From an uncultured Bacteroidia bacterium (GTDB lineage: Bacteria; Bacteroidota; Bacteroidia; Bacteroidales; Prolixibacteraceae), in assembly GCA_903923905.1 (NCBI GenBank), contig CAIXZH010000061.1:1-59639 (forward strand): 59,639 bases of DNA. The letters run 5' to 3'. Every line of letters starts with the position of its first letter. Positions within the stretch are counted from its first letter, which is position 1. A program made the position numbers and the translations under genes. The notes beneath the pieces were generated by a model, which searched no databases, had not been told where the DNA came from, and saw only the letters and a program-made list of their open reading frames with translations. This document shows, in pieces, positions 36,691 to 53,443 of the stretch.

Positions 36691-36729
36691 AGGGAATTGT
36701 CGTGGCGATATAACCTGTCAATCAGATAA

Positions 36730-37989: not shown

Positions 37990-38092
37990 AGACATAAGTA
38001 ATTGTCAATGAATAATGTTCAATTTTCAATGTTATTACGAATTGATTATCTGAGATATAGAAAGATATAGTTGCGACATTAAATCATTCCAC

Positions 38093-39082
38093 TTACTTAA
38101 GGGCATCGTATAGAACAGAGAATGATCTCAATTTTGCTTGAGGATCAAAAATATAACTGGCTGCCATCAGTTCATCAATTCCGGTTTCCTTAATAAATCC
38201 GGAAAGATCATTTCTCAGCGTATCTTGGTTACCGGTAAAGGTGCAGGACAACATACTGTTTACAAAAGCTCTCACATCAGGGTTTTGATAACTTTCCGGC
38301 AAGTCACCGGGTGGCTGGAGCGGATTTCGGGTGTTAGTGATGATTCCGACAAATAACCGGATCAAACTGCTCTTCAGGAATTGAGCCTCTTCATTGGTTT
38401 CGGCACCGATCACATTTACACAGGCCATCACATAAGGAGAATCAAGCTGTTTCGACGGTTTGAAATTATTCCGGTAAATAGCTATTGCTGAGCGGAATTG
38501 TGCCGGAGCGAAATGTGCGGCAAAAGCATAGGGCAGCCCCATTTGTGCGGCCAGATAGGCACTGTCCGTGCTGGACCCTAAGATCCAAAGGGGTATTTCC
38601 AAACCTTCCCCCGGGAAAGCGCGAACCCTTGCATTGAAGTTGTCATTACTGAAATAGGTTTGAAGTTGCCTGACATCAGCAGGAAACTCAGAGGAAGTGC
38701 TCATATTGTTGCGCCTCAGAGCCATGGCTGTAAATTGATCCGTTCCCGGAGCCCGGCCTAAACCTAGATCAATTCTTCCGGGATAAATGGTTTCGAGGGT
38801 CCCGAATTGTTCCGCAATAACGAGTGGACTGTGATTGGGCAGCATAATTCCACCCGATCCAACTCTGATCGTATTTGTCTTGCCGGCAACATGACCAATC
38901 AGGACCGAGGTGGCGGAACTCGCAATATGCTTCATGTTGTGATGCTCGGCCATCCAGATTCGCTGATATCCCAGAGATTCGGCATGTTTAGCCACTTTAA
39001 CCGTGCCGGCTATGGCTGTTCCTGGATTTCCCCCTTCGGTGACTGTAGCCAGTTCAAGGACAGATATCGGTATTTTTCTCAT
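38093..39082 (-). CDS. LLM-class flavin-dependent oxidoreductase
   Basis: A 329-residue luciferase-like flavoenzyme of the MsnO8 type, using FMN/F420-like reduced flavin for monooxygenation. Landmarks are [29 protein letters not shown] near residue 41 and [37 protein letters not shown] near residue 80. Its start overlaps the stop of the neighbouring LLM fragment by 4 bp (ATGA), so the pair was once or still is translationally coupled. The gene looks intact. Substrate unknown; the surrounding region is a cluster of NAD(P)/flavin oxidoreductases. Confidence 0.87.
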
Positions 39083-39447
39083 GAATTGCTGAATGAGTTC
39101 TTTAGTGAATTAATTGCCTTTTTAACTTCCGGGACAACCCGGGTGCCAAAAAGCTCTATTGATTTCATATTAATTCCGATTTGCAGGAGATCCGGATCAC
39201 TTCCCATCGCTATTGCTGTTTCTTTATAAAGATTGATAAACGGCGTAAACTGTTCAGGCATTCCGCCAATGTTAGCCAACATCAATGGTAAACCCAGGGT
39301 GGCCGCCCTCACCGCCGAAGCCGGGGTGCCGCTAGTTGCCAGCTTTATCTCCTCCATGAGATCCCTGATTCGCTGACGGGCTTTCACCGAACTTCCGGAT
39401 TGAGATTCCGGATTCATATCGGCAAAGGTCATTAATCCAAATTCCAT
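39079..39447 (-). pseudogene. LLM-class flavoenzyme with two internal deletions
   Basis: A 122-residue ORF. The start MEFGLMTFADMNPESQSG...RIRDLMEEIKLA (residues 1-36) is the N-terminus of an approximately 340-residue luciferase-like oxidoreductase. The chain then jumps to a segment from the family's second half (GTPASAVRAATLGLPL...NIGGMPEQFTPFINLYKE) and jumps again from GIN to the C-terminal helix SIELFGTRVVPEVKKAI. About 150-170 residues and about 80 residues seem to be missing, both without loss of frame. The flavin-binding core is gone, so the product should be inactive as an LLM enzyme. The stop remains coupled to the intact LLM gene (ATGA). Confidence 0.7.
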
Positions 39448-39465
39448 CCTGTTTGAGTAAAAATG

Positions 39466-40419
39466 TCATAAATCACTGGCTGTATCCAGTCTGGCCATTT
39501 GCTCATTTGTTAAAGTCAGCTTTGTAGCATGCAGAAGGTCACTCAACTGATGCTCACTCGTTGCGCTGGCAATAGGTGCCGTGACCAGCGGTTTTTGCAA
39601 TATCCAGGCGATAGCGATCTGAGATAGCGGGACATTTTGTTCCCTGGCAACCACATCCATTGCTGTCAAGATTCCAAATCCCCTGTCATCCAGGTATTTC
39701 TGTACACCTTGCCCGCGTTTACTCTTATCCAGGTCGTTAACACTCCTGTATTTCCCTGATAAGAAACCGCTTGCCAATGAATAATAGGGAATCACTCCCA
39801 ACGATTCTTCCAGGACCAATTGTGAATATTCGGTTTCAAATTTTTGCCGGTCATATAAATTATACAATGGCTGCAGACATACATATGGTGCGAGATGACC
39901 GGTCCGGGCAAAATCATTGGATGCCTTGATTCTCTCCGCGCTGAGATTTGATGCCCCGATATATCTTACTTTTCCTCCTTTAACCAGTTCATTAAATGCG
40001 CTCATAGTTTCTTCTACAGGTGTTTCAGGATCATCCACATGTGATTGATACAGATCTATATAATCGGTTCCCAATCTTTTTAAGGAAGCTTCAACAGCCT
40101 GTTTCATATAATTGGCACTTAACCCCTTCTTCCCTTCTCCCATATCGATCCCGAGTTTGGTGGCGAGGATCACATCCTTCCTTTTCCCCGACTTCTTCAG
40201 CCATTTACCGATTACGGTTTCCGATTCTCCTCCCTTATTTCCGGGAGCCCACATCGAATATACATCAGCAGTATCAATAAAATTAAAACCTGCATCCAGA
40301 AATGAGTCCAGTATTTTAAAAGAGGCTGATTCATCCAGGGTCCAGCCAAATACATTGCCTCCAAATGCAAGCGGGGAAATCCATAAGTCGGAGCTTCCTA
40401 ATTTTTTTCTATTTTCCAT
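39466..40419 (-). CDS. Cytoplasmic aldo/keto reductase
   Basis: A 317-residue AKR of the YajO/TAS-like type, reducing aldehydes or ketones with NADPH. The tetrad is visible: Asp and Tyr in FIDTADVYSMW, Lys in ILATKLGID, His in LYQSHVDDP. Other family markers are RKKLGSSDLWISPLAFGGNVFGW at the N-terminus and VRYIGASNLSAERI. No signal peptide, in contrast to the two Tat-exported AKRs of this window (12944 and 55315). It begins the minus-strand oxidoreductase cluster with 39 bp to the SDR gene upstream and 18 bp to the LLM fragment downstream, so shared transcription is likely. Confidence 0.9.
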   Translation of the reverse strand: MENRKKLGSSDLWISPLAFGGNVFGWTLDESASFKILDSFLDAGFNFIDTADVYSMWAPGNKGGESETVIGKWLKKSGKRKDVILATKLGIDMGEGKKGLSANYMKQAVEASLKRLGTDYIDLYQSHVDDPETPVEETMSAFNELVKGGKVRYIGASNLSAERIKASNDFARTGHLAPYVCLQPLYNLYDRQKFETEYSQLVLEESLGVIPYYSLASGFLSGKYRSVNDLDKSKRGQGVQKYLDDRGFGILTAMDVVAREQNVPLSQIAIAWILQKPLVTAPIASATSEHQLSDLLHATKLTLTNEQMARLDTASDL

Positions 40420-40458
40420 ATTAATAACTTTTCGTGTTTGTATATGATTTTAAAGTTT

Positions 40459-42012
40459 CTACCAGCTTATCGGGAAATAGTCCTTCAGGAACTTTCCACA
40501 CCAGTGTTTCCCTGTATTTGCACCGTCAATGAAAGGATCGCACACACGGGCTGCCCCGTCTACGATATCCAGGGGTGGCTGAAAATCATGAACCAGCTGT
40601 TTATGTGTGGCCAGGTCAGCAGGATCTTCATCGGTGACCCACCCGGTATCAACTGCATTCATATAGATCCCATCCTTGGCAAGATCACTGGCAGCGGTAT
40701 GAGTCAGCATATTAAGTGAAGCTTTCGCCATGTTGGTATGCGGATGGCGGTCAGCTTTCTTGAAACTGTGAAACTTCCCCTCCATGGCCGAAACATTCAC
40801 CACATGTTTCTTCCCCGTATAATCCTTTCGCATTAGTGTAGTGAGCCGATTGCAGAGCACAAACGGGGCGATGGAATTTACCAATTGTACTTCCACCATT
40901 TCGAGGGTTTCGATCTGACCAAGCTTCAACCTCCAACTATTGGTTTTCCGTAAATCAACCTGCTGAAGATCTGCATCCAATTTTCCTTCCGGGAAAACCT
41001 CGCGCGTTTCAATCGAATTGTCAAAAGTATAAGGGACCTGCGAAAGTTGTGCAGAAGCCCGGATACCTATACCCGGTGCCTGTCCGTTCCAGGAAACGGG
41101 CAATACACGTTGATTTTCAGGATCCTGGTTATTAAATTCGTCAATTTCCATTAAACATTGCCGGTGATGAGTGAGCAGCAGCTGCACCTCCTCAGAATGG
41201 TGATGAAACGGAAGGGCCTCATTACCCATTAAATGGGAATAGAAACCCGCGGGTCTTCGCACCGTTTGGGCTGCATTATTTATCAGAATATCAAGTCTTT
41301 CATACTTCCGCTCGACATACGAGGCAAAAAGCTCCACACTGGGAATGTGCCGCAGGTCAAGCCCATAAATATGTAGGCGGTGGCCCCATACAGAAAAATC
41401 CTTTTCTTTAGCAAACCGGATGGCCGAGTCAGCGGGGAAGCGTGTAGTCGCGATAACCGTAGCTCCTGAACGGAGCATCATTAAAGTGGCATGATATCCT
41501 ATTTTGAGCCTTGACCCGGTAATAAGCGCAACCTGACCGGTCATATCACAGGTCTGAAAACGCTTGGCATAATTTAGGTCGCCACACTCCTTACACATCG
41601 AGTCATAAAAATGATGAATCTCGGTATATAGCTTTTTGCAGACGTAACAATTCTGTTCAGAGACAAGATATCTGGTTTCATTGATAAGAACAGATTCAGG
41701 CAAGGCGATCTGAACCGGTGCTTCAAAAACTGCGGATGTCCGTGCACTTCGGATACTGGTGGCTGCACGTGCATTTCGGTTGTGCGTACTCTCTGCCTGC
41801 TTCCTTGCAACCTTAACACTCTTGTTCCTTTTATAAATCTCGGCCTTATCTGGCCGGGTAAGCTGACCAGCAGCTTTCATTAATCTAAGAAACTGATCCT
41901 GTGATAATTGAATGAGCTGATCGCCATTTTGAAGCAAATGTTCCAAAACCGAAATACAGCTATCGATATCTTCCCCTGTTATTTTATCCTGTTGTTCCGT
42001 CCTGTTCTCCAT
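40459..42012 (-). CDS. Large SDR-fold protein with N-terminal zinc ribbon
   Basis: A 517-residue protein, about twice the size of a plain SDR. Residues 1-115 are helical and charged; Cys122, Cys125, Cys140 and Cys143 form a CxxC...CxxC zinc ribbon. The SDR domain begins with [13 protein letters not shown] (about 162-174), followed by LINNAAQTV. The catalytic position usually held by Tyr in YxxxK reads HTNMAK, so Tyr is replaced by Thr. This points to altered chemistry or a non-catalytic role. A perfect -7 box lies 26 bp upstream. I know of no biochemical assignment for this architecture. Confidence 0.85.
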
Positions 42013-42037
42013 TAACTACTCGTTCATTTTAAAGGTG

Positions 42038-42045
42038 CAAAGATA
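42038..42045 (-). promoter_or_regulatory. Bacteroidetes -7 box of the large SDR gene
   Basis: The minus-strand sequence is TATCTTTG, a perfect TAnnTTTG, 26 bp before the start at 42012. A matching TTTG at -33 is not seen. It would drive the SDR gene and possibly the aldo/keto reductase and LLM genes behind it. Confidence 0.45.
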
Positions 42046-42076
42046 AGGATTGGAACAGTTGTGCAGATCATTTTCT

Positions 42077-42763
42077 TCATCCATTGCTGCTGCCACTAGC
42101 CAATATCTTTATGTCTTTTACCTCCAGGATATTTTTGGAGTATCCGGTTAACGATGAATTAATCATAGCATTGGCCAAATCCTTCAGATTGATAACAAAA
42201 TTCGGGTAGATCACCTCCATCAGCGGAAAAAGCCAGGCAACATATTTGTAGGTTTTGTAAAAAGTCTGGGAAGGTTTTAACGGTAAAAATGGTCTGATCC
42301 CGGCTGGCCTGAAATTAAAGACCTTTTTAAACGGCAATTTTATCAAATCATTTTCTGTTTTACCTTTTACACGGGCCCACATGGTTCGTCCTTTCTCACT
42401 GCTGTCGGTTCCGGCACCCGAAACGTAACAGAAAGCCATTTCCGGATTAAGCGTTGCAAGTGTTGTAGCAAAGTTCATGGTCAGGGTATAGGTTAACCGG
42501 GTATATTCTGCTTCATTTTTTCCTAGGGATGTGACACCAAGACAGAAATAACAGGCATTGTAGCCTGATAGCTGGTTATTGAGCGCTGAAATACCGGAGA
42601 AATCCGTAATGATGATTTCTGTCAGTTTGGGATGGATATAACCACAACTATGGCGTGTGATCACAAGTATCTTTTCTATTTCCGGGTGGTTCAGACTTTC
42701 GTAAAGTACCCCTTCTCCAACCATTCCGGTTGCGCCAGTAATAATGACTTTAAGCTTATTCAT
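42077..42763 (-). CDS. NAD(P)-binding oxidoreductase, HTATIP2/epimerase-like
   Basis: A 228-residue atypical SDR. The Rossmann start KVIITGATGMVGEGVLYE (residues 5-22) has the TGxxGxxG motif of NAD-dependent epimerases. CYFCLGVTSLGKNEAEYTRLTY and CYVSGAGTDSSEKGRTMWARVKGKTE match the HTATIP2/YbjT-like group, with WARVKGKTE replacing the catalytic YxxxK. Members are usually predicted NADPH-binding regulators or reductases. A short loose space of 28 bp separates it from the next SDR upstream, so the two are probably co-transcribed. Confidence 0.85.
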   Translation of the reverse strand: MNKLKVIITGATGMVGEGVLYESLNHPEIEKILVITRHSCGYIHPKLTEIIITDFSGISALNNQLSGYNACYFCLGVTSLGKNEAEYTRLTYTLTMNFATTLATLNPEMAFCYVSGAGTDSSEKGRTMWARVKGKTENDLIKLPFKKVFNFRPAGIRPFLPLKPSQTFYKTYKYVAWLFPLMEVIYPNFVINLKDLANAMINSSLTGYSKNILEVKDIKILASGSSNG

Positions 42764-42791
42764 TGTATTTTATTGCCTTAAAATATAAAAA

Positions 42792-43604
42792 TTACCTCAT
42801 CAGACTTAACATCAGGCGGTCGAACATCCTGTCTGACAACAGCTTCTTCACAAATAAAATAATTTTTGCCCCGCCCCCAGTAGCATACCGGGTTTTTGGC
42901 CGTTTGCAGGATGCTGCCTTAACAATTGTTCGGGCAACTACGATCGGAAGTGAACCTTTTTGATCTGCCATTTCCATCATTTTTACATGTTTGGCTGCCA
43001 GAATTTGATAATCGGTGTTCCCCGAGACTTTCAGCAGGTTTTCCCTTGCAATGGTATTCCATTCTGTCAGGATGGCTCCTGGTTTAATAATAACCACATC
43101 GATGCCAAATTGTTTAAGTTCCATGCGCAGGCAATCGCTCAAACCCTCTACCGCAAATTTTGTGGCATGGTACCACGATCCATGGGGCTCACCTAAACTT
43201 CCCCCTATGGATGATATATTAATGATCCTACCGGAATGCTGTTTTCGCATTGCAGGAAGAACAAGCTGGGTCAACCGTGCCAATCCAAAAATATTGACCT
43301 CGAACTGGTACCTGGCTTCCGGAATTGGAACGTCCTCCAATGCACCGAATGATCCATATCCTGCATTATTGACCAAAATATCAATCCGTTTCTCCTTATC
43401 CAGGATCGTTTTGACTCCAGATACCATAGAAGCATCATCAGTGACATCCATTTCAAGGAGTTTAACACCTGCCTCCTTCAGATCCTTCATCTTCTCCAGC
43501 CTTCTGGATGCGCCATAAACGGTATATCCCTTTTGAACAAATAATTTTGCACTCTCTTTTCCGATCCCGGATGAGGCCCCTGTTACCAAAACTATTTTTA
43601 CCAT
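42792..43604 (-). CDS. Classical SDR oxidoreductase
   Basis: A 270-residue short-chain dehydrogenase. TGASSGIGKES (residues 8-18) binds the cofactor, ASRRL favours NADPH, NNAGYGSFG is normal, and the catalytic residues are Ser in ISSIGG and Tyr/Lys in YHATK. The C-terminal extension (about 215-270) with VVARTIVKAASCKRPKTRY and a hydrophobic end is typical of oxidoreductases annotated as DltE/retinol-dehydrogenase-like. The promoter would lie in the gap 43605-43889, shared with the divergent sulfur operon. Substrate unknown. Confidence 0.9.
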   Translation of the reverse strand: MVKIVLVTGASSGIGKESAKLFVQKGYTVYGASRRLEKMKDLKEAGVKLLEMDVTDDASMVSGVKTILDKEKRIDILVNNAGYGSFGALEDVPIPEARYQFEVNIFGLARLTQLVLPAMRKQHSGRIINISSIGGSLGEPHGSWYHATKFAVEGLSDCLRMELKQFGIDVVIIKPGAILTEWNTIARENLLKVSGNTDYQILAAKHVKMMEMADQKGSLPIVVARTIVKAASCKRPKTRYATGGGAKIILFVKKLLSDRMFDRLMLSLMR

Positions 43605-43774
43605 ATTTGTTTTTATAATTGAAAGGATTACTTAAATTGATATCTATTTTGCAAGGTTACCCACTTTAATTTCCATTTGCAAACATTCATGTTCAGATTA
43701 ATAAATAAGCCCTACCCTATTTATGGTATATAATATGCCTTAATTACGGGATTTCATAAGATCATTTTTCTTCT

Positions 43775-43782
43775 TATTTTCG
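43775..43782 (+). promoter_or_regulatory. Imperfect -7 box before the sulfur-carrier operon
   Basis: TATTTTCG differs at one position from TAnnTTTG. It lies just upstream of the direct repeat ATTAGTTAAG, so the repeats would fall close to the transcription start and could be an operator. Confidence 0.3.
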
Positions 43783-43787
43783 CAAAC

Positions 43788-43810
43788 ATTAGTTAAGACA
43801 ATTAGTTAAG
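43788..43810. repeat. Tandem 10-bp direct repeat, candidate operator
   Basis: ATTAGTTAAG at 43788-43797 is repeated exactly at 43801-43810 with ACA between. Copies 13 bp apart start to start, near a possible promoter, are reminiscent of a dimeric regulator site, but this is speculative. Confidence 0.4.
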
Positions 43811-43889
43811 CCGGGAACACTGGCAAATATTGAAAATATGAGTACATATTTTATAGAATATAGTTCACTTACAGAACAATAAAAGAGAA

Positions 43890-44105
43890 ATGGGAAGTAT
43901 TTTGGTAAATGGTAAGGTTCAGGAGATGGAAGTGCCCATCTCTCTTATCGATTTGATAAAGAATAATAAGGTCGAACAGCCTGAAATGGTCTCTATTCAG
44001 GTAAATGGTGAATTTGTGGATCGCGATAGTTTTGAGACCACACAAATAAACACCAATGACGAAGTCGACTTTCTCTATTTCATGGGAGGAGGTTCCCGAT
44101 GTTGA
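43890..44105 (+). CDS. hcyS: ThiS-like sulfur carrier with C-terminal tail (HcyS-like)
   Basis: A 71-residue ubiquitin-fold sulfur carrier. The N-terminal half is MoaD/ThiS-like (SILVNGKVQEMEVPISLIDLI; IQVNGEFVDRDSF). Unlike ThiS and MoaD, the chain does not end in GG: it reads FMGGGSRC, so three residues (Ser69, Arg70, Cys71) follow the Gly triad at 66-68. In HcyS of Wolinella succinogenes a terminal residue is removed by a JAMM protease before the carrier is adenylated and sulfurated; the JAMM gene at 47049 would do this here. The GGA-GGA-GGT codons also place a strong Shine-Dalgarno sequence before the metY-like start, which overlaps this gene. Confidence 0.8.
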   Translation: MGSILVNGKVQEMEVPISLIDLIKNNKVEQPEMVSIQVNGEFVDRDSFETTQINTNDEVDFLYFMGGGSRC

Positions 44106-45343
44106 AACCCAAAGGGTTCACAACCAGGATAATTCACACCCCATATGCCAGGGAAGATGCAAATCATGCGTTGCATCAACCCATTTACAGTAATGCAGCT
44201 TTTGATTTTGAATCGGCAGAACAAATGGAACTGGCTTTTCAAGGACGGTTACCTGTTCATGCCTATTCACGCATCACCAATCCGACGGTTGAGAATTTTG
44301 AACTGCGCATCAAGCAGATAACGGGTGCACTCAATGTAACTGCCCTAAGTTCGGGAATGGCAGCCGTTTCGAATGTAATATTTTTGCTTGCATCTGCTGG
44401 CACCAATATAATCGCATCCAGGCACCTTTTTGGAAACACGTATGTCTTTTTCGAATCAACTATTAAAGAGTTTGGCATTGAGACGAGGTTTTGCGATCTG
44501 ACGAACCAGGAAGAAGTAAAGGCCAATATTGACAGTAATACCGTTGCCATATTTGTGGAAACGATCACCAATCCTCAACTCGAGGTGGTCGATCTCAAAA
44601 GTCTTTCACAGACCGCGCATGAACAAAATGTACCGCTGATTGCCGATTCAACGCTAACCCCTCCGAATGTATTCAATGCCAAAGAGTTTGGAGTGGATAT
44701 TGACGTAATTTCAAGTACGAAATGTATTTCAGGTGGCGGTACCAGTATTGGCGGGCTAATTATTGACTATGGCACCTTCAGCTGGAGTAAATCGAAGAAG
44801 CTGGCCACACTTTCTAAAAAATTCGGACCTTATGCTTTCAATTACAAATTAAGGCGGGAGATTTTCCGCAATCTTGGTGCCTGTATGTCACCATTTGCGG
44901 CCTATCTTCAAAGTTTAGGGCTCGAAACTCTCCAGATGCGTTTTGAAAAGGCAGCAACAAACTGCCGGGAGCTTGCCGCCTTCCTGGAAACTATGCCAAA
45001 GGTCACTGCCGTTAACTATCCTGGCAAACAAGGTTCTGCATTTGAAGCGATCAGCAGGCAACAATTTGGCGACTATCCCGGAGCGATGCTTACGTTTGAT
45101 TTTGCAACAAGGGAAGCGTGTTTCGCCTTTATGAATAATCTGGAGCTAATCAGGCGTGCAACAAATGTCTATGACAACAAAACCCTGATCCTCCATCCGG
45201 CTTCGACGATCTATTGCGATTTTGACCGGGAAACGCGTGAAGTCCTCCATGTGTTTGATACGACACTCAGGCTATCTCTTGGAATTGAAGACATTGAGGA
45301 TTTAAAAAGTGACCTTATGCAGGCCTTAAATAAAATAGAATAA
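44099..45343 (+). CDS. metY: O-acetylhomoserine sulfhydrylase (MetY-like)
   Basis: A 414-residue PLP enzyme of the Cys/Met-metabolism family. Conserved residues are visible: Tyr56 and Arg58 in AYSRITNP, Asp183 in ADSTLTPP, and the PLP lysine Lys208 in SSTKCISGGGTSIGG. It exchanges the acetyl group of O-acetylhomoserine for sulfur; in the protein-thiocarboxylate route the sulfur donor is a carrier protein thiocarboxylate, not free sulfide. Its start lies 7 bp inside the carrier gene, behind the GGAGGAGG sequence, so it is translationally coupled to it. Cys209 directly after the lysine, where His/Tyr is common, is a small deviation. The next gene starts 3 bp later. Confidence 0.88.
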   Translation: MLKPKGFTTRIIHTPYAREDANHALHQPIYSNAAFDFESAEQMELAFQGRLPVHAYSRITNPTVENFELRIKQITGALNVTALSSGMAAVSNVIFLLASAGTNIIASRHLFGNTYVFFESTIKEFGIETRFCDLTNQEEVKANIDSNTVAIFVETITNPQLEVVDLKSLSQTAHEQNVPLIADSTLTPPNVFNAKEFGVDIDVISSTKCISGGGTSIGGLIIDYGTFSWSKSKKLATLSKKFGPYAFNYKLRREIFRNLGACMSPFAAYLQSLGLETLQMRFEKAATNCRELAAFLETMPKVTAVNYPGKQGSAFEAISRQQFGDYPGAMLTFDFATREACFAFMNNLELIRRATNVYDNKTLILHPASTIYCDFDRETREVLHVFDTTLRLSLGIEDIEDLKSDLMQALNKIE

Positions 45344-45346
45344 ACG

Positions 45347-46159
45347 ATGGATTTTACTGAAGATCAAATACAAAGATACAGCCGCCATATCCTGCTTCAG
45401 GATGTTGGGGTTGAAGGACAGGAAAAAATAAGTAACGGGAAAGTACTGATTGTGGGTGCCGGTGGCTTGGGTGCCCCAGTGGCGCTTTATTTAGCAGCTG
45501 CCGGTGTCGGGACAATCGGAATTATCGATGGAGATGTCGTTGATCTGTCAAACCTTCAGCGGCAGGTGATCCATTTCACACCGGATGTGAACAAGGCTAA
45601 GGTGCTTTCTGCAAAAGAGAAAATAAACTTATTGAACCCGGATGTCAAGGTTATCACCTATTATGACCTTCTTACCGCAGCCAATGCATTGGAGATTATT
45701 AAAGATTATGATTTTGTAGTGGATGGAACCGATAATTTTCCGGTGAAATTTTTAATCAACGATGCCTGTGTAAATGCCGGAAAACCTTTCTCGCATGGTG
45801 GAATATTGCGCTTTGATGGACAGGCAATCACGGTCATACCAGGAAAAACTGCCTGTTACCGGTGCGTCTTTCATGCTCCTCCTCCTGCAAATGCCGTACC
45901 TACCTGTTCGCAGGCTGGAGTTTTGGGGGCCATTGCCGGAATTCTGGGAACCATACAAGCCACTGAAGTTTTAAAATATCTTACCGGCGTAGGTGATCTG
46001 CTGACCAACAGACTCCTGACATTCAATGCCAAAACAATGGAGTTTCGCAACATTAAGGTGAAACACAATCCGAAGTGTCAGGTGTGTGGCGATCATCCGA
46101 CAATTACTGAACTGGTCGATTATGAACAGGCAACATGTGAAATTAAGAACAATCATTAA
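45347..46159 (+). CDS. hcyF: ThiF/HesA-type E1-like activating enzyme (HcyF-like)
   Basis: A 270-residue E1-like enzyme that adenylates the C-terminal Gly of a sulfur carrier with ATP. The nucleotide loop GAGGLG is at residues 37-42, IIDGDVVDLSNLQRQ runs through 59-73, and the four zinc cysteines are C170, C173, C244 and C247. Cys187 in PTCSQAGVLG is the candidate active-site Cys. Size is that of the MoeB/ThiF group, without a rhodanese domain at the C-terminus. The position between metY and dsrE, right behind the carrier, points to the homocysteine carrier system. Spacing to the next gene is 2 bp. Confidence 0.9.
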   Translation: MDFTEDQIQRYSRHILLQDVGVEGQEKISNGKVLIVGAGGLGAPVALYLAAAGVGTIGIIDGDVVDLSNLQRQVIHFTPDVNKAKVLSAKEKINLLNPDVKVITYYDLLTAANALEIIKDYDFVVDGTDNFPVKFLINDACVNAGKPFSHGGILRFDGQAITVIPGKTACYRCVFHAPPPANAVPTCSQAGVLGAIAGILGTIQATEVLKYLTGVGDLLTNRLLTFNAKTMEFRNIKVKHNPKCQVCGDHPTITELVDYEQATCEIKNNH

Positions 46160-46161
46160 AA

Positions 46162-46674
46162 ATGGGAATTACAGAACTTAATATACTAACCGAACCTAAA
46201 GATCCGAAAAAGCTTTCGATCATCAGTTTCAGCGGAGACTTTGACAAGCTGGTGGCAACTTTTACCCTGGCAACGGGTGCAGCCGCAGTCGGTTATGAGG
46301 TTAATATTTTCTTTACCTTCTGGGGCCTCGATGCCATTAAGCAGAAACAGGGACGCTCTTTTGTTGGAACTGGCTCCCTGCCAAAACTTTTTGGTTTTTT
46401 TATGGGAGGACTGAGAAGCGCACCCGTAAGCCGGCTTAACTTTTGCGGTATTAGCCCAAAGATATTCCGCTACCTGATGCGCAAGAAAAATGTAGCTACT
46501 CTGGAAGAGCTGGTCGAAGCTGCCAAAGCTCTGGAAGTTAATATGTATGCCTGCGAGATGGCTATGCATATCCTTGGCCTTCAGAAAAGTGACTTTATTC
46601 ACGAAGTTAGGGACGTACTGGGAGTTGCAACGTTCCTTGACATTTCTGAAGGTGGAAGAACATTGTTCATTTAA
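46162..46674 (+). CDS. DsrE/DsrF/DrsH-like sulfur-transfer protein
   Basis: A 170-residue protein of the DsrE-like family (also called peroxiredoxin-family in some databases). The conserved Cys131 lies in NMYACEMAMHILGL, as expected for the persulfide-carrying Cys; the N-terminal half has VATFTLATGAAAVGYEVNIFFTFWGLDAI. DsrE-like proteins bind a persulfide and hand it to TusA-type partners; DsrE and TusA together form relays such as in sulfur oxidisers. The gene is 2 bp after the E1 gene, and a TusA gene follows after a 138-bp gap holding a hairpin. This pair is absent from the Wolinella HcyS cluster as I recall it. Confidence 0.85.
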   Translation: MGITELNILTEPKDPKKLSIISFSGDFDKLVATFTLATGAAAVGYEVNIFFTFWGLDAIKQKQGRSFVGTGSLPKLFGFFMGGLRSAPVSRLNFCGISPKIFRYLMRKKNVATLEELVEAAKALEVNMYACEMAMHILGLQKSDFIHEVRDVLGVATFLDISEGGRTLFI

Positions 46675-46703
46675 TGAACGAGAAACAACTTTGGCTTTGA
46701 GCA

Positions 46704-46754
46704 GCTGGCCACCGGCTTCCGGCATTTAGCAGTATCTGCCAAATACCGGCCAGC
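46704..46754 (+). repeat. GC-rich imperfect hairpin between dsrE-like and tusA-like genes
   Basis: Outer arms GCTGGCC (46704-46710) and GGCCAGC (46748-46754) and inner arms CCGGCATTTAGCAG (46719-46732) and CTGCCAAATACCGG (46736-46749) pair around a TAT apex, with an unpaired bulge on the left side. The segment is far more GC-rich than its surroundings. It may be a repetitive palindrome or an RNA processing element that sets the level of the distal genes. Confidence 0.6.
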
Positions 46755-46812
46755 CGCAAGTTGCCGGCCGCCAATAGCCTTAAATTTTTAAATATTAAAA
46801 CCAATTAATTCC

Positions 46813-47037
46813 ATGTCCACAGTTAAATTAGATATTACCAAAGAGCATTGCCCGATGACTTTCGTAAAAACAAAAATCGCATTATCAAAACTACAAAAGG
46901 GCGATATCCTCGAAGTTTTGCTTGTTGAAGGTGAGCCGCTTCAAAATGTACCTAAAAGTTCGAGAGAACAGGGATATAAGGTTCTGGAGGTATCGCATGT
47001 TGAAGGGCAGGTACACAAAGTTTTGATTGAGAAATAA
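46813..47037 (+). CDS. tusA: TusA-family sulfur carrier
   Basis: A 74-residue TusA-like protein. Cys13 in EHCPMTFVKTKIAL replaces the usual CPxP by CPMT, keeping Cys-Pro but losing the second Pro; this variant is common in non-tRNA TusA homologues. The C-terminal QNVPKSSREQGYKVLEV segment is the normal end of the fold. TusA proteins receive persulfide sulfur and pass it on, so this one may connect the DsrE-like protein to the sulfuration of the carrier. It lies 138 bp behind dsrE, an otherwise tight operon's largest gap, and 11 bp before the JAMM gene. Confidence 0.87.
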   Translation: MSTVKLDITKEHCPMTFVKTKIALSKLQKGDILEVLLVEGEPLQNVPKSSREQGYKVLEVSHVEGQVHKVLIEK

Positions 47038-47048
47038 TCCCAAACAAG

Positions 47049-47444
47049 ATGCTTAGAATTCCGCAACAGATAATAGATCAACTATTTGTGCATGCTCAAA
47101 ACGGCTTGCCGGAAGAAGTATGTGGCTATCTTGCCGGTATCGACCACGACGTCACCAAACATTTTCCGCTCACAAACATCGATCACAGTCCCGAACATTT
47201 TTCTTTCGATCCTGCCGAACAGTTCCAGGTAGTGCGAGAGGTACGGAAAGCAGGCCAGGTAATCCTTGCCAACTACCATAGTCACCCCGAAACGCCGGCA
47301 AGACCCTCTGTAGAGGACATCCGGCTCGCATTTGATCCGGAGATCAGTTATGTCATAGTTTCACTTGCAGCAGAAATACCAGATATAAAATCATTCAGGA
47401 TTCGGAACGGTGAAGTTGAAAAGGAGGAGATTCAGATTGTCTGA
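47049..47444 (+). CDS. hcyD: JAMM/M67 metalloprotease (HcyD-like)
   Basis: A 131-residue zinc metalloprotease. The JAMM motif is complete: Glu23 in PEEVCGYLAG, His77 and His79 in HSHPETPARPSVED, Ser87 and Asp90. In Wolinella HcyD removes the terminal residue of the carrier and later frees homocysteine from it; in mycobacteria Mec+ plays the same part for CysO. This one should process the SRC tail of the carrier at 43890. Its stop TGA directly abuts the TGA (read as TCA on this strand) of the TonB receptor gene, so the operon ends with no room for a terminator. Confidence 0.88.
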   Translation: MLRIPQQIIDQLFVHAQNGLPEEVCGYLAGIDHDVTKHFPLTNIDHSPEHFSFDPAEQFQVVREVRKAGQVILANYHSHPETPARPSVEDIRLAFDPEISYVIVSLAAEIPDIKSFRIRNGEVEKEEIQIV

Positions 47445-49958
47445 TCAATAATATAATCTTAACGATATTCTGGGAGAAAATGGAACAGCCTGGGAATAAA
47501 TATTAAGCGTAGTTGACTGATTAACAGGTACTCTTTCAAAATTGGAGTACCAGATATTTTTAGCATTAAACAAGTTTAAGATTGACAATCCTGCCTCACA
47601 GGCAATCTTCCCAACATCAAAACGGTAATTGGCAGCAATATCCACCCGATTATAGACCTGATAGTTGTAGTTAGGGTTAAGAATTGATCCGCTTGTCAAA
47701 GGAAAGCCAGATCCAAAAACATATATTGCCGAAAAATTAAATGGCTTGACATTGAATAATGTAGCTACCTTTACTTCGTGTCGCTGATCCTGGGGGGCCG
47801 GAAGATACTCACTCTTTGGAAAGTACGAAAAATTCTCCTCGGTTTTACTCAAGGTATATGAAATCCAGGCTGAATGTCCTTTGAAATCTTTTCTGACAAA
47901 GAAATCAATTCCGTAACTCCTCCCTCTACCATTATAAATCAAATTGTTATAATTCAAATCCTTGTTAATATACCGGGTTAATCCGTCGGTACTTTTGTAG
48001 TAGGTTTCAATACTCACGGTTAAATCATCCTGGTGGTATGAACCACCTGCAACCCAATGAACAGCTTTAAGAACAGGAATCTGCTTATTATCACAGGTTG
48101 TCCAAATATACCGGTAATTCCCCTGATTATCTATTACCGAACTCTTGGATATAAACTGATTATAAATCCCCCATGCGGCATTTAGTTTGGCAAATTCGCT
48201 AAGTCGGATACTTGCAGACAAACGTGGTTGAACATAAATCCTGTTAAGAGATAATGGAAGATCTGAACGTAAACCATATTTTACCTCTATTTCACCGGGT
48301 AGGGTGACATGGTCCTGCAAATATCCATTAACTCGCGTCATTTGAGACTTAAGGTTAGTTTGATTATAACCAAAAGAATCGATCCGTAATCCAACCTCAT
48401 TTTGATCAAATCCAATCCCTGCCTCTAGCATATGGGACTGAGACAGTTTGAAAAAATTGTCGATGCGTTCAGAATATTCACCTATTTTATTATAAATCTG
48501 GTCGTTATTTAATTGTTGAAATACATTTTTGGATCGCTCAATACTCTGGATATTCGATAAGTCCGTTTCGAGTGAAGACCATGAGGTGGTGAAATTGGTA
48601 ATATTTCCATTCTTCCAGGTACGACCATAAAAAGCAGAGGCACCGTATTGATAGTTATTTTCGGCATCGATTTTAAAAAGACCATTCAGACCGACATATG
48701 GATTAATAAGATATCTGAAGCGGTCCTGACTCCCCAGGTAACTGATATAAAAAAGCCCTCCATGGTTATTTCTTGCGGTATATCTGACATTAATATCCTG
48801 GTAATTATAATCAGGGAGCACGGTATAGTCAATTGCGGAGCTTGACACATTAACTGGTGTAATAACATTTTGATTATTTGCCGGAAGAACATCTTTCCCC
48901 TTGTACAAATTAAAATAAGTCTGCCGAAAAGAGACTAAAATTGAACTGTTTCTCCATAGTGGGACTTCAGCCATTCCATTCATAGTTACATTATTAATAT
49001 TCAAGCTAAAAGAAGGTTTTACCATATTCGCGGTCTTTCCGGAAATATTAACAATACCTCCTATCCTGCCCCCATGACCGGCATCATATCCCCCCTTTAA
49101 CACTTCAATCTCTTTTGCAATTAAAGGATTTACGGCGTTGATTTCATCATTGAAACTTTTTAAACCCCATATCGTAAATCCATCGAACAGGATCTGGCTA
49201 TGTCCTTCATATGAACCCCATATTATCAATCCATTTGATTGTTCACTGGAAGCCAGGATACCTGGCATGAGTCTTAATATGGTAAATACCGAATTATCCC
49301 CACTCCCAGGCAAATAATTAGCAATCTGATGATTAACCTTTATTACACCCGCTTTATTTCCAATATGAGTCGATTTGTCAAAAGATCGGTCCTTGATCAC
49401 TATTTCCCTTAGTCCTATTACCGATGGGATTAAGTAAAAACGATGGTATATACCTGCAACTACAACAGTATCCAGAGGAAAGTATCCCAAATGAGATACG
49501 CGTATATGAAAAACACTATCAGTGGTACTTTGATAAGTAAAGCTCCCTTTAAGATCCGAAACTAGCATCCGGTTATTGACGTAAAGTTGGGAGAATGCCA
49601 GTGGTTCAGTGGAATTGGCCTCAGAGACCTGTCCGAGTAAGAGATAGTTGTGCAATACAACCTGTTTTTTTTCAGGAAGTATCAGAAATATATCTCCTTG
49701 TTTCCTGTAAATCAACGGGAACTTACTGATAATTGATCGGATCGCATCTTCCGGAGAAGCCCATTGATTGGTGATGGTCAAATTATACCGTGAAAGCAAT
49801 TGATCGTCAAACGAAAACTGCAATCTGTATTTATCACGCAATTCAATTAGAATCTGATTCAATGGAGTATTAACAACAGCAATATCAATCTGTTGGGAAA
49901 AGCAGGATATTGCTGTCAAGTGAAAAAACAGGATAAAAACTATCAATCGTTGGTTCAC
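47445..49958 (-). CDS. STN-domain TonB-dependent receptor (FecA-type)
   Basis: An 837-residue outer membrane receptor. Signal peptide about 1-22; STN (secretin/TonB short) domain about 24-95, seen in IDIAVVNTPLNQILIELRD; carboxypeptidase-like regulatory domain about 105-180; plug about 215-310 with the GGYDAGHGGRIGGIVNI pattern; barrel to the C-terminal RISLRLYY. The STN domain is the part that passes a ligand signal to an anti-sigma factor, and the FecR and sigma genes lie upstream in the same direction. There is no SusD partner, so a small chelate or cofactor is more likely than a long glycan. A sulfur compound is conceivable because of the convergent neighbour, but that is only proximity. 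Confidence 0.88.
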   Translation of the reverse strand: MNQRLIVFILFFHLTAISCFSQQIDIAVVNTPLNQILIELRDKYRLQFSFDDQLLSRYNLTITNQWASPEDAIRSIISKFPLIYRKQGDIFLILPEKKQVVLHNYLLLGQVSEANSTEPLAFSQLYVNNRMLVSDLKGSFTYQSTTDSVFHIRVSHLGYFPLDTVVVAGIYHRFYLIPSVIGLREIVIKDRSFDKSTHIGNKAGVIKVNHQIANYLPGSGDNSVFTILRLMPGILASSEQSNGLIIWGSYEGHSQILFDGFTIWGLKSFNDEINAVNPLIAKEIEVLKGGYDAGHGGRIGGIVNISGKTANMVKPSFSLNINNVTMNGMAEVPLWRNSSILVSFRQTYFNLYKGKDVLPANNQNVITPVNVSSSAIDYTVLPDYNYQDINVRYTARNNHGGLFYISYLGSQDRFRYLINPYVGLNGLFKIDAENNYQYGASAFYGRTWKNGNITNFTTSWSSLETDLSNIQSIERSKNVFQQLNNDQIYNKIGEYSERIDNFFKLSQSHMLEAGIGFDQNEVGLRIDSFGYNQTNLKSQMTRVNGYLQDHVTLPGEIEVKYGLRSDLPLSLNRIYVQPRLSASIRLSEFAKLNAAWGIYNQFISKSSVIDNQGNYRYIWTTCDNKQIPVLKAVHWVAGGSYHQDDLTVSIETYYKSTDGLTRYINKDLNYNNLIYNGRGRSYGIDFFVRKDFKGHSAWISYTLSKTEENFSYFPKSEYLPAPQDQRHEVKVATLFNVKPFNFSAIYVFGSGFPLTSGSILNPNYNYQVYNRVDIAANYRFDVGKIACEAGLSILNLFNAKNIWYSNFERVPVNQSTTLNIYSQAVPFSPRISLRLYY

Positions 49959-49970
49959 GATCCACTTGGA

Positions 49971-50828
49971 TTAATTAACCAGATATACGGTATCTGATTT
50001 TGCATCAAATTTAATCCCTAATGAGGTACAAACCAAATCGAGCACCTCTTTTCCCGACAATGATCTTGAAAAATTTCCTGTGTAAGTCAAACCTGGATTG
50101 GCCTTGAAATTAATTTTTATATTATATTGGCGTTCAATCTCCTGCAAAACTGTAACGATTGGAGAACTTGTAAAAACAAACATATTATCTCTCCAGGACT
50201 TAACAATTTTTGTGTTGACTTCCTGAGCAAAGCGTAAAAATCCATCTTTTGTAATAAAAGCTTTCTCATTAGGGTTCAATAATACCCGTTCATTTTTTCC
50301 TGCAGAAACCACCCTTACCTTGCCGGTAAAACAGGTTACACTATAATCATTATCCCTGGAATAAATATTAAAACTGGTTCCGAATACCGAAGTTTCACCT
50401 AATTTGGAAACTACTTTAAAACCTGGGCCCTTCTGTACTGTAAAAAAAGCCTCCCCATCAAGTGTTATGGCCCGCGCGACACTAAACCAATAGGGGTGAT
50501 AACTTACAACAGACTGGGCATTCATTTCAACTTTTGAGTTATCGGGTAACAGATAGGTCAAATGTTGACCGGAGGGTACGTAAATCGTTCTGGTATATAG
50601 CCGAAGAAATCCGGTAACACTAAAAATTATTACAATGGAGGCCGCAGCAGCAACTCTGAACAAAAGATTGCGTGAAATAGCAAAGTGATGAATCTTTGGC
50701 TTATCCATTTGATGCAACAGATTTTCCCAGACTTTATTCTCAGAAACCGAATAATGGATCTCGATTTCCGGGAACTGGTCTATCTTGTCAGTTGAACTAA
50801 AATCTCTATGTAAATTTATTTTTTTCAT
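49971..50828 (-). CDS. FecR-family anti-sigma factor
   Basis: A 285-residue inner-membrane regulator. One transmembrane helix lies at about residues 54-78, so about 50 residues face the cytoplasm and the FecR domain (about 85-180, PSGQHLTYLLPDNSKVEMNAQS) faces the periplasm. The C-terminal DUF4974-type domain (about 212-285, TGNFSRSLSGKEVLDLVCTSLGIKF) probably meets the receptor's STN domain. Its start overlaps the sigma stop by one base (TAATG read on the minus strand), and 12 bp separate it from the receptor gene. The cytoplasmic part is rather short for an ECF-binding domain. Confidence 0.9.
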   Translation of the reverse strand: MKKINLHRDFSSTDKIDQFPEIEIHYSVSENKVWENLLHQMDKPKIHHFAISRNLLFRVAAAASIVIIFSVTGFLRLYTRTIYVPSGQHLTYLLPDNSKVEMNAQSVVSYHPYWFSVARAITLDGEAFFTVQKGPGFKVVSKLGETSVFGTSFNIYSRDNDYSVTCFTGKVRVVSAGKNERVLLNPNEKAFITKDGFLRFAQEVNTKIVKSWRDNMFVFTSSPIVTVLQEIERQYNIKINFKANPGLTYTGNFSRSLSGKEVLDLVCTSLGIKFDAKSDTVYLVN

Positions 50829-51313
50829 TAATCTCCGATTGCCTTTCGTAAATATTCCAAGGCGTTTTTCATTCGTTTTTCAACCGCTTTAATGCTTAAG
50901 CCAAGGCTTTCAGCAATTTCAAAATATTTCATCCCCTCCATCCTGCTCAGGAGAAAAACGGTTCTTTGTTTTTCCGGCAGTCGTTCCAACGCTTTCTCAT
51001 AATTCTTTAGCAACTCCTGATAATGCATCAAATCGTGAGGACTCTCTCCAAATTGCTCATCCACAACTTTTGCCTTATACTTCATTACTACATTGCGCTT
51101 TCGTAACTGAGAAATTAACAAGTCACCCGCAATTTTATAAAGAAGTGCCCTGGTATTGCTATTTACCAATTCGAAATTCTTTTCCCACAGCCTGATAAAA
51201 GTCTCCTGCGCTACATCAGTCGCCAGATCCTGATCACCTGACCGGTAGTAAACGTAGTTACGAACACCTGCAAAATGGGTATTAAATATATTTTTAAATT
51301 CTTCTCGCGTCAA
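50828..51313 (-). CDS. ECF RNA polymerase sigma factor (Bacteroidetes type)
   Basis: A 161-residue ECF sigma factor. Region 2 (EFKNIFNTHFAGVRNYVYYRSGDQDLATDVAQETFIRLW) spans about residues 5-43 and region 4 (LPEKQRTVFLLSRMEGMKYFEIAESLGLSIKAVEKRM) about 115-151. No ATG lies near the region-2 start; the likely initiation codon is TTG at 51313, since a stop is found eight codons upstream and the next in-frame Met lies after region 2. A perfect -7 box is present at 51338-51345 just upstream. It is the first gene of the sigma/FecR/receptor module, probably transcribing that module in response to a ligand. Confidence 0.88.
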   Translation of the reverse strand: MTREEFKNIFNTHFAGVRNYVYYRSGDQDLATDVAQETFIRLWEKNFELVNSNTRALLYKIAGDLLISQLRKRNVVMKYKAKVVDEQFGESPHDLMHYQELLKNYEKALERLPEKQRTVFLLSRMEGMKYFEIAESLGLSIKAVEKRMKNALEYLRKAIGD

Positions 51314-51337
51314 AGTTTCAATTACTTAAATGTAGTA

Positions 51338-51345
51338 CAAAACTA
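51338..51345 (-). promoter_or_regulatory. Bacteroidetes -7 box of the sigma factor gene
   Basis: On the minus strand TAGTTTTG matches TAnnTTTG perfectly, 24 bp before the TTG start at 51313. The likely leader is therefore very short. This supports the non-ATG start. Confidence 0.5.
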
Positions 51346-51486
51346 CAAAAAGGTTTCAACTATTGATACCAGCTTCCGGTCAGATGTTCCGGAGATCAGA
51401 AGCTCCTCACCCAGTGAATATTATAAATTACTCCCGTATTTTGATCTCTTACTGCATGCTTTTGATTCTATCCAGATTATACCAAT

Positions 51487-52512
51487 TCAGGAATTATCAT
51501 CTCTGATGGCAGAAAAATTTTTATCTACATTAATTCTGAAACGGTACGATTCCGGATGTTTTAAAGATCGCGTACTTATCCACGTATCCTGTAGGAACGC
51601 GTTAAAATAGTAGTTTATCAGCTTCAAATAAACTTTATTTGAAACCATTAAACGTTTATTTGAAAATAAAATCAATCCAGGAATGGCTGAAATGAATCCC
51701 AATACCAGATTATTTAAAATTAATAAAGCATGCATCAACACCTCTTTTAAACCATTCTCATGCAAAGAGATATACTCATGATGCGAGATTAAAATCTCCG
51801 TCTTGGTAAGTACTTTAATTTCAGTATCAGATCTGGACGAACCACCAGGATTATGCACCAAAGCTACGTTTTTTAAAACGACTATAACTCCTCCCAGGTC
51901 TTTAGCCCTGCGGCATAAATCGACATCTTCATAGTACATCCAGAATCTTTCATTCCATTTACCAATAGAATTGAAGCTCATTTTACTCATCATCATAACC
52001 GAGCCGGAAACCCAGTCAGGAAAAATAAAACGATCGCTCTGTAAAGGCTTAGCAATCAATTTGAAAGCTTTGGCCAAAGTAGTTGTCCAACCAAACAATG
52101 ACAGGGGAGATGGGAAATCACCATATGGTCTGTCTTCTACTCCATTTGCCCTTAATTGTCTGCATGAGATGATTGAATTGGCTCGGCTGACCTTTGCCTG
52201 GTCGAGCATGGCCAACAGCGTCCTCTCTGAAACCATAGTGTCAGGATTTAAAAACAGAAGATATTTCCCATTGGAATTTGCAGCACCAAGGTTATTTCCA
52301 TTTGCAAATCCGTAGTTCCCGGAATTCAAAATAAAATTGAACTGTGGAAATAAACCCCTGAATTCATTTAATTTTTCAACCTGTGACGAATTTTCGACTA
52401 CAATCACCTCAAAAGAAAAATAGGTAGCTGGAATTGAGGCTAACGAATCAAGACATTGGGTAAGCATATCCCAACTTCGATAATTGACTACTATAATTGA
52501 CAGGTCTTTCAA
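51487..52512 (-). CDS. Family 2 glycosyltransferase (rhamnosyltransferase-like)
   Basis: A 341-residue GT-A glycosyltransferase. It opens with LSIIVVNYRSWDMLTQCLDSL, and the DxD-like acceptor motif appears as LFLNPDTMV near residue 92; NERFWMYYEDVDLCRRAKDLG holds the catalytic base and is typical of WbbL-like rhamnosyltransferases. A hydrophobic tail segment (about 265-290) could bind the membrane. The role would be addition of a sugar to a surface polysaccharide or lipid-linked intermediate. It stands alone on the minus strand between the sigma gene and the thioesterase gene, with no other cell-surface genes near it. Confidence 0.88.
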   Translation of the reverse strand: MKDLSIIVVNYRSWDMLTQCLDSLASIPATYFSFEVIVVENSSQVEKLNEFRGLFPQFNFILNSGNYGFANGNNLGAANSNGKYLLFLNPDTMVSERTLLAMLDQAKVSRANSIISCRQLRANGVEDRPYGDFPSPLSLFGWTTTLAKAFKLIAKPLQSDRFIFPDWVSGSVMMMSKMSFNSIGKWNERFWMYYEDVDLCRRAKDLGGVIVVLKNVALVHNPGGSSRSDTEIKVLTKTEILISHHEYISLHENGLKEVLMHALLILNNLVLGFISAIPGLILFSNKRLMVSNKVYLKLINYYFNAFLQDTWISTRSLKHPESYRFRINVDKNFSAIRDDNS

Positions 52513-52696
52513 AATAAATCGTGCTTAAAGGATCTATAAAATGACAGTTTCAAATAATTTAAAGAATCGTAATCAAACGATTCGATAAATCCTTGTTTCC
52601 CACTGTTATTTACTTACCGCTTCAAATGCTTTTTACCCTACCGGAAAGAAGAAATAAAACCGGCAATAAAACCTATCCTACGGGTTTTCTTAAAGA

Positions 52697-53443
52697 TCAG
52701 GAATAGTTAAGTAATGTTTCCCAGGTTAGAACTGCTTTAAATAGTTTTGTTGATGAGGTCGATTCAATCGCTTCAACAGCAGAATTCAGAAAATCATTTC
52801 CAATATGAAGTTCAATTTCATCACCCCAATGGGTTTCAGCCAAAAACTCAAGTGAAAATCCTGTAAGCCGATGATTCTGATAATGCTTAAGTTTAAAGCA
52901 ATCTGTGGCCCAATCGAGGTAACGCGTATTGTTGACATGAAGATTCTGGTCAATTTCATTGTATGCCACTTTTTTATTGAAGGCTACCTGCTCTGTTTGG
53001 GCGGTAAGTCTTTCAGGGAAATAGGCCAGTGACTTCCTCCCATTATTGAATGGCAAATCAATGCCGAGCATGGAAGGGCGCTGTGGACGAAGTGTCTGTG
53101 CCGCCAACAATAACCAACCTGATACAGCCCGAATGATTATCTGGTGATCCTTATCATAAACAATAAAATCACGCCTGAAAAAGAGTCCCTCACTCCCGCA
53201 GGGCCAGGTTTCGATCAGAATCGATTCGCCCCACCGCGGCATTCTGCCAATTTCAACAGTCAGCCTCGACAAAGCCCAGAACAATTCCCTTGAGATTAAT
53301 GCATCATAACCAGCCCCAAGCTCCGCTGCATGGTTGGAAGCAACCTCCTGAAAAAATTGCATCAAGGCAGATGGCTTAGCATTTTGCTGAAAATCAACAT
53401 TATATGATTTAATATCAAAATCTTCCTTCCAAATAGTTTCCAT
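52697..53443 (-). CDS. Acyl-ACP thioesterase (FatA/FatB-like)
   Basis: A 248-residue protein with two hot-dog domains, hydrolysing acyl-ACP to release fatty acids. The N-terminal NVDFQQNAKPSALMQFFQEVASNHA and the second-domain VAYNEIDQNLHVNNTRYLDWATDC are family landmarks; Asn and His of the NxHVNN stretch act in catalysis. Members in Bacteroidetes supply free fatty acids for envelope lipids. It starts 18 bp after the MutS-like gene and is transcribed with it, a pairing without an obvious logic unless the operon serves membrane maintenance. Confidence 0.88.
   Translation of the reverse strand: METIWKEDFDIKSYNVDFQQNAKPSALMQFFQEVASNHAAELGAGYDALISRELFWALSRLTVEIGRMPRWGESILIETWPCGSEGLFFRRDFIVYDKDHQIIIRAVSGWLLLAAQTLRPQRPSMLGIDLPFNNGRKSLAYFPERLTAQTEQVAFNKKVAYNEIDQNLHVNNTRYLDWATDCFKLKHYQNHRLTGFSLEFLAETHWGDEIELHIGNDFLNSAVEAIESTSSTKLFKAVLTWETLLNYS

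Follow-up and report, generated by a model that had tools for sequence, protein, structure and literature searches.

What do a DsrE-like protein and a TusA do among genes that appear to build homocysteine? The question is raised by a six-gene operon at positions 43890..47444 of contig CAIXZH010000061.1 (assembly GCA_903923905.1), from an uncultured bacterium of the Prolixibacteraceae; the whole 59,639 nucleotides of this stretch are referred to here as the window. Besides these two proteins, the operon encodes a ubiquitin-like sulfur carrier, a sulfhydrylase, an E1-like enzyme and a JAMM protease. Our best reading, as yet unproven, is that DsrE and TusA form a persulfide relay that would load the carrier. 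Judging from sequence, we assign a probability of about 0.6 to the operon being an HcyS-type thiocarboxylate route to homocysteine with such a two-protein relay built in.

The order carrier-MetY-E1-DsrE-TusA-JAMM, which an earlier note on this DNA had claimed, is confirmed by the open reading frames, all on the plus strand, and by Pfam matches that exceed the cut-offs for all six. The ThiS-like, HcyS-type sulfur carrier (43890..44105; PF02597, ThiS, 42 bits) ends in FLYFMGGG-SRC. Its best solved relative is 2k5p/3cwi, with which it has FLYFMGGG in common; the GGG column is conserved in 65 of 65 aligned rows, and at least one residue follows GGG in all 65 tails. The SRC tail beyond the glycines would have to be removed. 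The carrier gene overlaps by 7 bp with that of the O-acetylhomoserine sulfhydrylase MetY (44099..45343; Cys_Met_Meta_PP, 329 bits), whose K208, in SSTK and located by alignment to the solved chain 3ri6, is presumably the pyridoxal 5'-phosphate (PLP) lysine. After a gap of 3 bp follows the HcyF-type E1-like adenylyltransferase (45347..46159; 270 amino acids; PF00899, ThiF, 282 bits), which has no rhodanese match. Its C187 is conserved in 72/72 aligned rows and falls on a cysteine of MoeB in the alignment to 1jw9 (182 bits).

The DsrE-like protein (46162..46674; DrsE_2, PF13686, 135 bits) starts 2 bp further on and has 2qs7 and 3pnx as its best solved relatives; its C131, in YACEM, is conserved in 45 of 46 aligned rows, the remaining row being a gap. 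TusA (46813..47037; PF01206, 72 bits) is separated from it by 138 bp and carries its active cysteine, C13 (conserved in 48/48), in CPMTFVK; the motif CPMTFV[KR] is found in all 48 of 48 free TusAs of such clusters. Another 11 bp downstream lies the HcyD-type JAMM metalloprotease (47049..47444; PF14464, Prok-JAB, 86 bits; best solved relative 2kks). Its E23 occurs in 82 of 83 aligned rows, and H77, H79, S87 and D90 in 83 of 83; these residues fit what we take to be the JAMM motif (E, HxHx10D, S).

The kind of MetY identifies the acceptor. Against solved chains, the window MetY scores 436 bits with 3ri6 and 278 bits with the next chain, and its 355 bits with TIGR01326 stay below the cut-off of 495. 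We take 3ri6 to be the Wolinella enzyme. A loop after the PLP lysine, counted from a tryptophan up to the AF-like pair that follows it, comprises 18 residues in the window MetY, in 3ri6 and in 18 other MetYs of the 3ri6 kind, and 20 in those of loci L039 and L040; thus the 21 MetYs of the 3ri6 kind encoded in the loci examined, the window included, all fall within 18–20. It measures 35 residues in four ordinary MetYs (those on contigs C50 and C67 of the same genome, plus those of L064 and L082) and 16 in L092 and L095, which are of neither kind. In a MetY tree of 28 rows, the window, 15 other cluster MetYs, L171–L174 and 3ri6 lie on one side of a branch with support 99/98, and on the opposite side lie 8sf5, the two ordinary MetYs that the own genome encodes, and those of L064, L082, L092 and L095, the last two forming a long branch.

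Taken with the tail beyond GGG, the rhodanese-less E1 and the JAMM residues, the 3ri6-type MetY bears out the assignment of the core genes to HcyS, MetY, HcyF and HcyD, and the core is most likely an HcyS-type protein-thiocarboxylate route to homocysteine. In the HcyS-MetY-HcyF-HcyD pathway of Wolinella succinogenes, the sulfur source is reportedly sulfide. The window shares with the Wolinella-type set a ThiS-like carrier whose glycines are followed by a tail, a rhodanese-less E1, a JAMM protein and a 3ri6-like MetY; it differs in having DsrE within the operon and in lacking a linked sulfite reductase, cysD and cysN.

Could the carrier instead be an ordinary ThiS serving thiazole synthesis, or a ubiquitin-like protein tag? 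It passes the NCBIfam ThiS cut-off (52.6 over 37.45), and for the JAMM and E1 there are matches, below the model cut-offs, to the desampylase and SAMP-activating models. However, the metY gene that overlaps the carrier gene is of the 3ri6 type, and besides the carrier no PF02597 protein was found in its genome, where the sole ThiG match is marginal (22.7 bits, rising to 23.1 if its neighbours are added, with the cut-off at 23) and belongs to a nitronate monooxygenase (Pfam NMO, 208 bits). A job in thiazole synthesis is therefore unlikely. The reading of the carrier as a thiamine ThiS was set aside, and we consider either of these two roles very improbable.

Parts of this arrangement are already in print. 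In the accessible text of Iyer et al. 2006 (PMC1779556), ThiS/MoaD, JAB, a rhodanese-less E1, SirA and O-acetylhomoserine sulfhydrylase are described as clustered, with Wolinella among the genomes. The class concerned, 4e, shares all of these with the window, SirA being TusA; it lists sulfate genes, whereas the window has no linked ones, and "DsrE" has 0 occurrences in the main text. Class 4c of the same paper, CysK-JAMM-E1(rhodanese), as described there likewise places E1 and JAMM beside a sulfur-acceptor enzyme, but with a rhodanese on the E1 and cysteine synthase as the acceptor. The earlier note had held both DsrE and TusA to be foreign to the known cluster. For TusA this does not hold, as SirA has been in print since 2006; for DsrE, the addition to the cluster, no such case was found in print. 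Among the titles listed, no printed DsrE-TusA-thiocarboxylate link and no encapsulin-TusA link turned up in the literature searched, which mostly left subscription journals outside its coverage.

How firmly do DsrE and TusA belong to the set? A scan of the genome collection with the JAMM alignment gave 493 relatives; the best 80 of the 493, together with L039, L040 and the window, make up the 83 loci that we examined with profiles on all frames. In 17 of the 83, a 3ri6-type MetY adjoins E1 (the window, L039, L040, L057, L058, L059, L061, L063, L067, L068, L069, L070, L073, L074, L076, L080 and L106). L070 is counted here although it is too short for the MetY tree, and L064, L082, L092 and L095, whose MetYs are not of the 3ri6 kind, are left out. 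DsrE occurs in 15 of these 17 and free TusA in 16. L073 has neither and is followed by a sulfite reductase with a TusA domain; in L080, only the end of a DsrE frame is left between E1 and TusA, a state in which loss and misassembly are indistinguishable. L039 and L040, from two genomes of one family in another class of the same phylum, repeat the window's six genes without any change in order.

Carrier, full E1 and JAMM are present together in 65 of the 83 rows. Both DsrE and free TusA accompany them in 34 loci and neither in 29, with DsrE alone in one (L088, whose contig ends inside DsrE) and TusA alone in one (L080), so that the two agree in 63 of 65. The pair is thus not sporadic beside the set. 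Among 296 genomes sampled evenly across the phylum, the own genome included, JAMM matches at E 0.001 occur in 99, yet identities of at least 46% are confined to the own genome and to G188 and G074, the two genomes that contain L039 and L040 (the rest at most 41%), and DsrE matches at E 1e-8 occur in 74, with at least 59% identity in these three genomes only (next 43%). The high-identity JAMM and DsrE genes lie side by side in all three.

Conserved cysteines and linkage suggest how the proteins might work together. JAMM would trim the SRC tail of the carrier to expose the glycines, and E1 would adenylate the carboxyl end. A persulfide on C13 of TusA would then be passed to the activated carrier, probably via C187 of E1, doing the job of the rhodanese domain that is fused to related E1s. 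C131 of DsrE may pass the persulfide to or from TusA, the order and direction of this step being conjectural. Finally, the 3ri6-type MetY would use the carrier thiocarboxylate as sulfur donor to O-acetylhomoserine, a substrate that the organism's own MetA can supply. We infer the relay step from the linkage, from the cysteines being conserved and from TusA standing in where rhodanese is missing. In the accessible text of Iyer et al. 2006 (PMC1779556), SirA is assigned a rhodanese-like role. More distant clusters have the rhodanese: among the surroundings of 16 weaker JAMM matches, 15 hold an E1 of 379–507 amino acids and a cysteine synthase (L047 holds neither), and all six E1s scanned there have a rhodanese domain, whereas the window E1 has none.

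DsrE and TusA occur in one of these 16 surroundings, L046, where cysteine synthase, JAMM, a ThiS-E1-rhodanese fusion, TusA and DsrE stand in a row on the minus strand (L046:3461-7335). Judged by its genes, DsrE-TusA has here been combined with a carrier system in a second, separate way.

Where, then, does the sulfur come from? The earlier note had seen no sulfate- or sulfite-reduction gene in the window. This is correct, as whole-genome profile searches gave no PF01077 or PF01507 match on its contig, C61, and no reductase, CysD or CysN was found by profile within 36001-53000 of the window, but such genes are present elsewhere in the genome. The assembly (97.8% complete, 4.5% contamination, 119 contigs) encodes CysI (798 bits; 566 amino acids, ordinary) and CysJ (706 bits), both over the cut-off, together with a siroheme-synthase N-terminal domain; CysD and CysN occur twice by profile, on C101 and C52, and a CysH-like protein of 232 amino acids with a phosphoadenosine-phosphosulfate-reductase domain is encoded on C77. 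A check for other metY genes turned up two ordinary MetYs: an acetyl-type MetA (487 bits; cut-off 460.5) adjoins one of them (666 bits), and the second lies on C67, as does a CysK. With MetA and ordinary MetYs in the genome, the operon would be a second route to homocysteine and not the sole one.

Many sister sets are accompanied by sulfite reductase. It lies on the same strand within 9 kb in 29 of the 65 loci with carrier, full E1 and JAMM, 7 with and 22 without DsrE; L110 has it on the other strand. Of the 29 loci that lack both DsrE and free TusA, 21 have a reductase within this distance and 8 do not. In all, 37 matches to the reductase profile were obtained, 28 of which bear or are a TusA with the motif CP[MIF]N[FY]V, fused in 26 cases and encoded by a separate gene in two (L039 and L040). 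The other nine are the bodies of the L039 and L040 reductases and the matches in L074, L083, L107, L110, L113, L117 and L119, which are cut or have no TusA. In a TusA tree of 79 short rows, the free group (support 75) and the reductase-linked group (79) lie together, apart from three others (91), a grouping that is weak because the columns are few. The swap of free TusA for reductase-fused TusA offers a ready test of carrier loading.

The fused form is exemplified by L124:5582-7930 and shared by 25 other reductases; it is a sulfite reductase with a C-terminal TusA domain (CPMNFV), 755–841 amino acids long where not cut by a contig end. These reductases adjoin carrier-E1-JAMM, in several loci along with cysD, cysN and siroheme synthase genes.

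Such loci raise the alternative that the set is fed by sulfate assimilation, with TusA collecting sulfide or bound sulfur from the reductase and DsrE buffering or tuning the flow, so that the relay extends sulfite reduction and does not replace it. The TusA domain on 26 reductases and the separate tusA gene after two more speak for this, as do the ten loci in which reductase and DsrE are co-located and the CysDN, CysH-like protein and CysJI of the own genome. On the other hand, neither the window nor its nearest relatives (L057, L058, L059, L061 and L069) have a linked reductase, the own reductase is an ordinary CysI and neither of the two TusA matches in the genome is on the CysI contig. Moreover, none of the 18 encapsulin loci described below has a same-strand sulfite reductase within 9 kb. 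We regard feeding by sulfate assimilation as unlikely, though it is the most serious of the competing explanations.

The own genome also holds a second DsrE-TusA pair (L142, on contig C66, 8862-19337), after which come genes for an HdrA-like protein, a pair of iron-sulfur proteins and, by a weak match, a Pyr_redox_2 protein. Because this pair lies beside an HdrA-like gene, DsrE-TusA pairs seem to serve several paths, and one could suppose that those in the window are a sink or regulator that accepts excess persulfide, the carrier being loaded from sulfide. The sulfide source reported for Wolinella would agree with that. However, the DsrE-TusA pair is kept in the operon across families, and in sister sets TusA is fused to the very reductase that produces the sulfur, which is more readily expected of a donor than of a sink; we consider a sink improbable. 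In Metallosphaera, according to the accessible text of PMC4175335, a DsrE-family protein and TusA are likewise neighbours, and DsrE3A passes thiosulfate to TusA. The flanking genes there are Hdr-like, whereas the window pair belongs to an operon for amino-acid synthesis that includes a ubiquitin-like carrier.

Several observations weigh against a persulfide relay that loads the carrier. The own genome would make sulfide by CysJI, to judge from its genes, and the window holds no linked source of persulfide; a cysteine desulfurase elsewhere in the genome, which was not searched for, is the natural guess. DsrE lies within 9 kb and on the same strand of a sulfite reductase in 10 of the 83 loci (L039, L040, L064, L074, L075, L076, L106, L113, L114 and L117), 7 of them among the 65, and DsrE-TusA is therefore not a simple substitute for sulfite reduction. 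With these loci and with CysDN, the CysH-like protein, CysJI, MetA and two ordinary MetYs in the genome, the earlier proposal that homocysteine is made without free sulfide is not shown. Eight of the 65 loci have neither DsrE, free TusA nor a nearby reductase, two of them (L126 and L129) ending close by. The linkages also rest on few events, since DsrE changes only 6 times on the E1 tree of 72 rows (sulfite reductase 11, encapsulin 5, MetY 5) and tests on independent pairs are powerless: well-supported branches yield just 3, 1 and 2 such pairs, the median p is 1, and significance is unreachable by a sign test. Lastly, three encapsulin loci (L094, L103 and L109) have DsrE-TusA-JAMM but neither carrier nor E1 linked to it, despite more than 8 kb upstream, and no encapsulin was found in the own genome or two close relatives by a search that matched in three positive-control genomes.

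The encapsulin loci may point to a persulfide source in other genomes. A family-2 encapsulin is encoded in 18 of the 83 loci (L063, L077, L084, L088, L091–L095, L098, L103, L105, L108, L109, L111, L131, L133 and L135), 17 with DsrE, 16 with a SufS-like, persulfide-making cysteine desulfurase of the type known as encapsulin cargo, 13 with CysK and 5 with CysE; the locus without DsrE, L098, is on a contig that starts at TusA. Among the 65 loci with carrier, E1 and JAMM, encapsulin is present in 13, all with DsrE. The five encapsulin loci without carrier and E1 are the three named above and L091 and L098, which are cut by a contig end; in L088 and L108 the set is rearranged or split. CysK, MetY, encapsulin and desulfurase occur together in L063. 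Previous accounts of encapsulins touch on part of this: in the accessible text of PMC8346489, serine acetyltransferase and rhodanese are enriched beside desulfurase systems, while neither "ThiF" nor "DsrE" occurs, and in that of PMC8049743, "sulfur carrier" and "rhodanese" have 0 occurrences.

It is tempting to see in these loci a modular form of protein-bound sulfur assimilation, in which carrier, E1 and JAMM combine with exchangeable donors (DsrE-TusA or a TusA-sulfite reductase) and with acceptors that can likewise be swapped, MetY giving homocysteine and CysK cysteine. In Bacteroidales, where the DsrE-TusA version adjoins a family-2 encapsulin and its desulfurase, persulfide made or stored there would then reach cysteine without free sulfide, and the window would represent an encapsulin-free homocysteine branch. 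We offer this as a tentative scheme, which we hold to be possible but doubtful. If a DsrE-TusA relay loads the carrier, sulfur would stay protein-bound all the way from persulfide to homocysteine, and DsrE-TusA pairs, known from sulfur oxidation, would gain a role in amino-acid synthesis; such a role would also hint at a purpose for the family-2 encapsulins that accompany a cysteine desulfurase in Bacteroidales.

The 3ri6-type MetY was also searched for in the genomes of 13 relatives. In those of L063 and L057, it is the cluster copy. It lies on contigs other than that of the carrier cluster in the genomes of L093 (58% identity) and L124 (53%). In the L081 genome, the enzyme (L173 of the tree; 48%, with one stop in frame) is on the carrier-cluster contig, 12 kb downstream of JAMM and after CysD and CysN. 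The L089 copy (49%) is on a 6.5-kb contig, and the partial L107 copy (52%) follows the tail of a sulfite reductase on a contig of 3 kb; with contigs this short, linkage of these two to the carrier cluster cannot be told. No 3ri6-type MetY of a similar match level was found in the genomes of L104, L130, L132, L099, L135 and L119.

The 138-bp gap between DsrE and TusA (46675..46812, plus strand) could form a strong hairpin (−43.8 kcal/mol, z −4.0). Hairpins with z < −3 were found in 13 of 28 DsrE-TusA gaps, 1 of 21 E1-DsrE gaps and 5 of 14 carrier-E1 gaps. Among the loci compared, the window hairpin had no BLAST match outside its own place; aligned with three near relatives it shows a loose likeness, with a mean column identity of 56%. 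DsrE-like matches were also seen in open frames of about 840 amino acids in two genomes (G230:C4:220046-220513 and G238:C1:584084-584536), perhaps multidomain fusions.

Downstream of the operon, on the minus strand (47445-51313), are genes for a TonB-dependent receptor, FecR and a sigma factor. Their homologues follow the cluster in the same order in L057, L058, L059, L061, L069, L070 and L071, at about 60–80% identity, and lie upstream of it in L074, at 40–48% identity.

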